Assembly: GCF_035083965.1 (NCBI RefSeq)
Contig: NC_089740.1
Span: forward strand, 8,305,552 to 8,369,551
Direction of reading: 5' to 3'
DNA: 64,000 bases
Source of the DNA: Branchiostoma lanceolatum
Taxonomy: Eukaryota > Chordata > Leptocardii > Amphioxiformes > Branchiostomatidae
Part shown: one piece after another, positions 4,385 to 25,786 of the stretch
How positions within the stretch are numbered: position 1 is the first letter of the stretch
Layout of the letters: each line of letters starts with the position of its first letter
Made by a program: the position numbers and the translations under genes
Notes under the pieces: generated by a model
What the model was told of the DNA's origin: nothing
What the model saw: the letters and a program-made list of their open reading frames with translations, nothing else
The model's database searches: none

Positions 4385-4837
4385 TCAGGAAAAGGTAATG
4401 TAACCGTCCCCTTGTGGGGTATCTTCTTCAGAGACGTCATCGTTCGAAGGACTCCATGCCCTTTTGACGTAACTGGGGAGGGGCGCGAGATACTGAGGAT
4501 GGTCGGCACGTTCAACAGACAACTCATCACTGACAGTTCTGTCTGACGTTTGGCTGGTACCGTGGAGAGGGGAGAGATACCGGTCTCGGTACAAGTCTCG
4601 TCGTCCGAAGTCTTTTTCAAAGGCCACGTCGGTGAAGGATCTTTCAGACGTGTTCAAGGAGGTACGTCTGGACATGAGGTACTGATCTGAGTACTCGTCT
4701 CGATGTCCGAAATCTCCCCCATATGTACTATAACTGCTGACCGATTTGTTGTCAATGTTGCCGTGATTGCGTAGTGAGACTGGGTCTCTGACATAACGAT
4801 CCTTGTACAACTGAAGAAGTTTCTTTCTCCTTCGTTC
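4385..4837 (-). CDS. Exon 34: cytoplasmic tail with threefold tyrosine repeat
   Basis: The last exon encodes about 150 aa after TM5 and ends in TGA. It starts with basic ERRRKKLL. Three loosely repeated blocks follow, each with a D/K-x-Y-x-D-x-Y core: LYKDRYVRDPVSL, FGHRDEYSDQYLMSR and FGRRDLYRDRYLSPL, spaced 35-50 residues apart. The end is acidic (SNDDVSEEDTPQGDGYITF). No coiled coil or channel sequence is present. Tyrosine phosphorylation is possible but unproven. Confidence 0.85.
   Translation of the reverse strand, partial: ERRRKKLLQLYKDRYVRDPVSLRNHGNIDNKSVSSYSTYGGDFGHRDEYSDQYLMSRRTSLNTSERSFTDVAFEKDFGRRDLYRDRYLSPLHGTSQTSDRTVSDELSVERADHPQYLAPLPSYVKRAWSPSNDDVSEEDTPQGDGYITFS

Positions 4838-25786: not shown

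Follow-up and report, generated by a model that had tools for sequence, protein, structure and literature searches.

A Predicted Five-Span REJ/GPS Receptor without PLAT and Channel Half in the Lancelet Branchiostoma lanceolatum

The Locus and Its Gene Model

The window analysed here is a stretch of 64,000 nucleotides from the genome of the lancelet Branchiostoma lanceolatum (NC_089740.1, positions 8,305,552 to 8,369,551), and it contains a large receptor gene on the minus strand (25786..4385), modelled as 35 exons that code for 2697 aa and finish with one terminal TGA (Table 1). Dynamic programming over the minus strand first produced a model of 30 exons and 2444 aa; curation by hand, which followed splice sites and domain sense by eye, added six exons (10, 12, 13, 14, 32, and 34), removed one, and shifted the starts of exons 11 and 17. 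In the curated model all 34 introns are GT-AG, the phases are compatible, and internal stops are absent. The original prediction had put a single gene of in-phase exons at exactly these coordinates, but its counts of 34 exons and 2672 aa have to be revised. The exon that was removed, a 57-bp piece at 5957-6013, belongs to an incomplete tandem duplicate of the first part of exon 33, which includes the splice acceptor and lies at ~5915-6035 on the minus strand (121 aligned bases, ungapped). If spliced in, this phase 1-1 cassette would supply a second TM4-like span.

In every exon at least one of the other frames is interrupted by a stop, and for 30 of the 35 the chosen frame is the sole open one. 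The GC content at codon positions 1, 2, and 3 is 51, 47, and 57% (exon 2 excluded), and 37% in the introns. The codon score is highest in the chosen frame for 31 exons, the exceptions being exons 1, 2, 23 (5.3 versus 5.8 in another frame), and 35, and these scores lean toward the chosen frame because they were trained on the model's own exons except 2 and 35.

Several other features can be recognized in the window. Pieces of a cytokine-receptor-like gene occupy 28239-35247 (minus strand), with an Interfer-bind match at 32055-32513 (2.2e-7), FN3-like pieces, and a 528-aa frame with repeated ATPSGC/ATPSDC-type motifs in its presumed cytoplasmic part. Two similar single-exon frames of rhodopsin-type GPCRs are found at 38613-40097 (plus) and 61402-62754 (minus), with 7tm_1 matches of 3.6e-22 and 5.5e-16, the second of them broken by a single stop in frame at 61978-61980. 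Besides these, there is an 849-aa single-exon LRR receptor frame at 56067-58613 (plus; LRR_8, 1.6e-25), which by eye has a single hydrophobic span and a tail containing Tyr; an exon-like frame at 46496-47347 (minus) matching the uncharacterised Pfam family KIAA1328 (28.4 versus a cut-off of 27 bits); and a 151-bp tandem repeat in four copies at 49902-50504, which overlaps a charged, repeat-containing minus-strand frame.

Table 1. Parts of the receptor gene, with positions counted from the first letter of the window.
Feature	Position	Strand	Basis
Exon 1: ATG and signal-peptide-like MIFLWVLAFFRICGLASAQ	25729..25786	-	model, hydropathy
Exon 2: Thr/Ser-rich mucin-like region, then sushi domain 1	21089..22840	-	repeat search, Pfam
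Exons 3-9: sushi domains 2-8	18606..20887	-	177 bp each, phase 1-1, Pfam
Exons 10-12: EGF-like modules, the last of calcium-binding type	17106..18200	-	phase 1-1, Pfam
Exons 13-14: SEA-like module, 113 aa, with GSL	16142..16781	-	weak alignment to one MUC1 SEA sequence
Exon 15: EGF-like module, then REJ start	15130..15687	-	model, Pfam
REJ domain, ~residues 1329-1721, exons 15-20	12342..15512	-	Pfam PF02010
GAIN-like region and GPS, exons 21-29	8331..11989	-	Pfam GPS; weak ADGRF1 alignment
TM1, residues 2219-2237	8208..8264	-	hydropathy
Intron between TM1 and TM2 exons, phase 0, site of missing PLAT	7818..8174	-	coding score
Exon 30: post-PLAT HHLWVSVV (2269-2276) and TM2 (2289-2307)	7566..7817	-	aligned to polycystin-1 6a70_B
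Exon 31: TM3 and cytoplasmic loop	6804..7083	-	hydropathy, polycystin-1 alignment
Exon 32: end of TM3-TM4 loop (PFPWWC)	6237..6341	-	model, polycystin-1 alignment
Exon 33: TM4 and TM5	5680..5867	-	aligned to polycystin-1
Exons 34 (5186-5257) and 35 (4385-4837): cytoplasmic tail, internal repeats, TGA	4385..5257	-	model, repeat comparison

The Outer Region

The outer part of the receptor opens with a mucin-like region, in which Ser and Thr make up 56% of residues 21-560 and a 24-bp (8-aa) unit is repeated 49.4 times (21412-22606), and continues with sushi domains, so that the Thr/Ser repeat and the eight CCP domains of the original prediction are both borne out. All eight sushi stretches lie above the Pfam cut-off (E 5.7e-89). 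The seven separate sushi exons differ from each other, over 21 pairs, by 14, 21, and 35% at the first, second, and third codon position, as expected of coding sequence. The Pfam family HRM also exceeds its cut-off in this region (9.1e-8), which we take to be a cross-match due to the arrangement of cysteines. At ~19262-19315 (minus strand) there is the relic of a ninth sushi exon, whose acceptor and first bases resemble sushi 7 (exon 8) and are followed by unrelated sequence with a stop. The EGF-like modules, found by Pfam, were missing from the predicted list of ectodomain parts. In addition, the outer part carries 42 N-glycosylation sequons.

The SEA-like module that had been proposed keeps a more tentative standing. 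A SEA profile is absent from the module of exons 13-14 (Pfam, E up to 10), and its two weak PDB matches are unrelated small proteins. It does align weakly, over almost its full length, with one MUC1 SEA sequence, GSL facing GSV, at a score that 3.65% of 2000 shuffles equal. Among 51 other pieces of the protein, including some that overlap the module, one reaches this score or a higher one.

Exons 2-12 are, every one, of phase 1-1. For lancelets, the gain of domain pairs has been estimated at more than 10 per Myr, with phase 1-1 exons favoured (PMC4284660), so that a shuffled ectodomain is unsurprising in this lineage; the run found here agrees with that pattern.

The REJ Domain and the GPS

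Both REJ and GPS, as originally predicted, exceed their Pfam cut-offs. The sea urchin SpREJ family is defined by a REJ domain, given as ~600 residues in the text and 319-571 in a table of the source (PMC1934368), and the domain found here matches PF02010 with an E value of 1.3e-63 over ~393 residues (profile 5-406 of 452). A PDB search with the REJ part gave no match up to E 1. The GPS (residues 2158-2196, E 1.8e-8) retains an intact HL/T cleavage motif at residues 2191-2193 (~8340-8348), ahead of TM1 as in the polycystin-1 family, and the GAIN region in front of it aligns weakly with ADGRF1 (~250 aa, E 0.09).

Five Spans and the Absence of PLAT

Five hydrophobic spans follow the GPS according to hydropathy, the number that had been predicted; there is no 7tm match, and the seven spans of an adhesion GPCR are not present. 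A PDB search with the last 523 aa (E up to 1) returned three distinct sequences, all of them polycystin-1, the best at 2.7e-18. The match consists of two stretches, TM2-3 (3e-11) and TM4-5 (4e-4), and ends after TM5, whereas TM1 lies outside it and is assigned by hydropathy and position. With this proviso, TM1-5 of the polycystin-1 family is present.

The predicted lack of a PLAT core and of a polycystin channel agrees with the Pfam searches, as neither PLAT nor PKD_channel matches residues 544-2697, searched in five pieces at E up to 5. Nothing of PLAT or channel kind appears in the TM1-TM2 piece or in the tail at E up to 10, and neither domain matches in two ORFs that span the TM1-TM2 intron. 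The TM6-11 channel of a bona fide pkd gene, in the sense of PMC5318412, is likewise without a match in the parts of the window that were searched.

The place after TM1, where the polycystin-1 family carries PLAT, is occupied by an intron of 357 bp with coding scores of -52 to -55 in the three minus-strand frames. The PLAT domain of human polycystin-1 presumably ends near residue 3233. Ser3164 and Ile3167 are within it (PMC11918491), and Y3307, H3311, and R3314 sit in the first extracellular loop (PMC11458180), so that the aligned residues can be numbered. Counted back by hand from the latter three, the human HIWLSIW that faces HHLWVSVV corresponds to 3261-3267, which locates the segment behind PLAT and not, as had been proposed, in its last strand. 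Moreover, HHLWVSVV starts 72 residues past the GPS end, and the GPS-to-PLAT spacing in nine fish PKD1-family proteins, the rows seen with both domains (PMC5318412), is 72 (n=6), 73 (n=2), or 75 (n=1). The nine exclude zebrafish pkd1l1, for which the PLAT range as printed is impossible, and also pufferfish pkd1l2b, which is listed with a GPS and a channel and without PLAT. The spacing and the non-coding-like intron indicate that PLAT is absent as a whole unit. Judged on the sequence, it is lost cleanly, with the frame kept at the phase-0 junction. The proposal that a remnant of PLAT persists between these two spans is rejected on the results of Pfam, the polycystin-1 alignment, the intron score, and the GPS spacing. 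The overall description, a REJ/GPS receptor with TM1-5 and with neither PLAT nor channel, agrees with the sequence.

The Tyrosine-Rich Tail

After TM5 come 24 aa of exon 34 and then 150 aa with 11 Tyr, the tyrosine-rich tail of the original prediction. Two adjacent stretches of it form a 29-aa alignment with a score of 66, which none of 2000 shuffles reaches (mean 21.2, sd 4.5); a third copy is weakly similar to one of them (score 32, 0.8% of shuffles) and not significantly to the other (12%). The two copies, which have 57% nucleotide identity, show 11, 10, and 16 mismatches at the first, second, and third position of 29 codons, a pattern that slightly favours the chosen frame, contrary to the codon-usage score of exon 35 (23.3 in the +1 frame versus 17.4 in the chosen one). 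The +1 frame carries a stop at 4654-4656. Codon usage does not settle the reading frame of the tail. Of the motifs searched for in the tail, YxxP occurs twice and YxxPhi once, and those of the ITIM-like, YxxM, and YxN kind are absent.

About 280 bp behind the receptor stop codon, on the same strand, lies a LINE-type frame (875-4102, minus strand), open over 1075 aa and with an endonuclease and a reverse transcriptase (RVT_1, 6.6e-29). Insertion of this element was considered as a cause of the channel loss and set aside because its open frame looks young and the tail repeat has diverged.

A Possible Receptor Role Independent of a Channel

We think that the gene may code for an adhesion receptor of the cell surface that belongs to the REJ/polycystin-1 type, has lost its channel half (TM6-11) and, separately, PLAT, and acts independently of a channel, and we give this reading about an even chance. 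The GAIN region would cleave itself at HL/T into a 2192-aa outer fragment and a 505-aa five-span fragment, on which the former would stay non-covalently, as GPS fragments are reported to remain attached (PMC9672506). The rod of mucin, sushi, and EGF parts could then contact a ligand on another cell, the matrix, or a gamete, and ligand or pull might displace the outer fragment and free a new N-terminus, TAFAGFV. The five-span core would signal via its own cytoplasmic Tyr-rich tail and not via a pore; the odd number of spans, five as well as eleven, would keep the tail cytoplasmic. The PLAT domain has phosphatidylserine, PI4P, and beta-arrestin as binding partners (PMC9672506); without it the receptor should lack these contacts to lipid and beta-arrestin, by which the trafficking of polycystin-1 is regulated. 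The more specific proposal, that a polycystin has become a self-cleaving adhesion receptor free of channel and PLAT and signals through phosphorylation of tyrosines in its new tail, is a tentative one, and we rather doubt it. A point against the main reading comes from the stalk mechanism proposed for human polycystin-1, which requires the TOP domain and the pore loop (PMC11458180); both are absent here, so that this mechanism cannot act unchanged, and stalk release may be ineffective. The hand curation of the model, the codon usage of exon 35, which prefers another frame, and the lack of ITIM-like, YxxM, and YxN motifs in the tail count against it as well.

The extent to which polycystin-1 has a receptor function separate from its channel is still debated. 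If the more specific proposal is right, the five-span half of polycystin-1 would be a working receptor unit, its receptor role naturally separated from the channel role. A protein with REJ, GAIN/GPS, and TM1-5 and with neither TOP, pore, nor PLAT would let one ask what TM1-5 does alone and whether GPS release signals without TOP and pore-loop contacts.

Alternative Explanations

The original prediction suggested that this could be a receptor-only protein in need of a separate channel partner; such a subunit would bind a polycystin-2-type channel via its five spans or its ectodomain. The PC-1 family does work with PC-2 channels, and TM1-5, peripheral in polycystin-1, adjoins the channel core of the PC-1/PC-2 complex, but the part that interdigitates with PC-2 and forms this core is TM6-11 (PMC7728438), which is missing here, and TM6-11 of PKD1L3 by itself suffices for channel assembly with PKD2L1 (PMC8357825). 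There is no channel gene among the ORFs scanned in the window, even if partners need not be neighbours. We regard such a subunit as unlikely.

It is less probable still that the model is a short form, other transcripts skipping exon 35 or splicing out of it to PLAT or channel exons past the left edge. The window ends 4.4 kb beyond the stop, with the LINE in between, and AATAAA and ATTAAA are absent at 3900-4400, which leaves some room for such exons. Exon 35, however, is open for 150 codons to its TGA, with a protein-level repeat and with no GTAAG or GTGAG donor; the ten minus-strand ORFs of at least 30 aa that touch 1-874, out of 16 on both strands, hold neither PLAT nor a channel domain; and PLAT would need a source other than its usual place.

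Somewhat more improbable again is that two genes, one for a secreted protein of mucin and sushi parts and the other for a REJ protein with five spans, were joined into one model by mistake. The ectodomain does combine its modules in a new way, and compatible splice phases do not by themselves prove joining, but no stop-bearing exon is needed for the frame from exon 9 to exon 15, where all junctions are of phase 1, and the sole hydrophobic ATG frame found at 18600-15700 is another frame of an EGF exon. Finally, a decaying remnant of an 11-span gene seems the least probable, as all 35 exons are open, no splice site is broken, the window holds no N, and the PLAT loss preserves the frame, in spite of the broken pieces of duplicated exons in the introns and of the channel-less fish Pkd1l3 sequences, which the authors who described them did not count among bona fide pkd genes (PMC5318412).

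Comparison with Known Systems

We know of no protein with exactly this build. Searches of open-licence PubMed Central papers for an amphioxus REJ domain, a lancelet receptor for egg jelly, or REJ with sushi found no papers, and five spans without PLAT combined with sushi and mucin parts were not met in that literature.

The nearest structures are those of human polycystin-1 (PDB 6a70, 8z6f, 8z6b), which shares REJ, the GPS with HL/T, and TM1-5, and differs in having PLAT and TM6-11 and another ectodomain. A joining of SEA module and GPS in one protein was reportedly described in a study of Ig-hepta (ADGRF5). ADGRF1, to which the GPS region aligns weakly, and ADGRF5 have seven spans of another kind and are not known to carry REJ.

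The sea urchin REJ proteins have 0, 1, 2, 6, or 11 TM and carry PLAT in five of ten cases (PMC1934368). Six of the ten are channel-less (SpREJ1, 2, 7, 8, 9, and 10) and share with this receptor the REJ domain, the lack of a channel and, except for SpREJ10, the GPS; SpREJ1 resembles it further in its EGF domain and SpREJ9 in a Ser-rich region. They differ in having 0, 1, 2, or 6 TM, against five here, and no sushi array is named for them in the sections consulted (PMC1934368). Zebrafish Pkd1l3, termed a putative partial orthologue, is similar in having the GPS and no channel domain in its 1083 aa, and different in that it keeps PLAT, has a C-type lectin, and is listed without REJ or sushi (PMC5318412); the 370 aa behind PLAT would be enough for TM2-5. 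The channel domain is absent in zebrafish and spotted gar Pkd1l3, in stickleback Pkd1b, and in the current human PKD1L2 model, several of the fish sequences being marked incomplete (PMC5318412). With sea urchin, fish, and the human PKD1L2 model taken together, channel loss seems to have happened repeatedly. The loss of the channel as such is already known in relatives, and it is the five-span, PLAT-less build with sushi and mucin parts that appears to be new.
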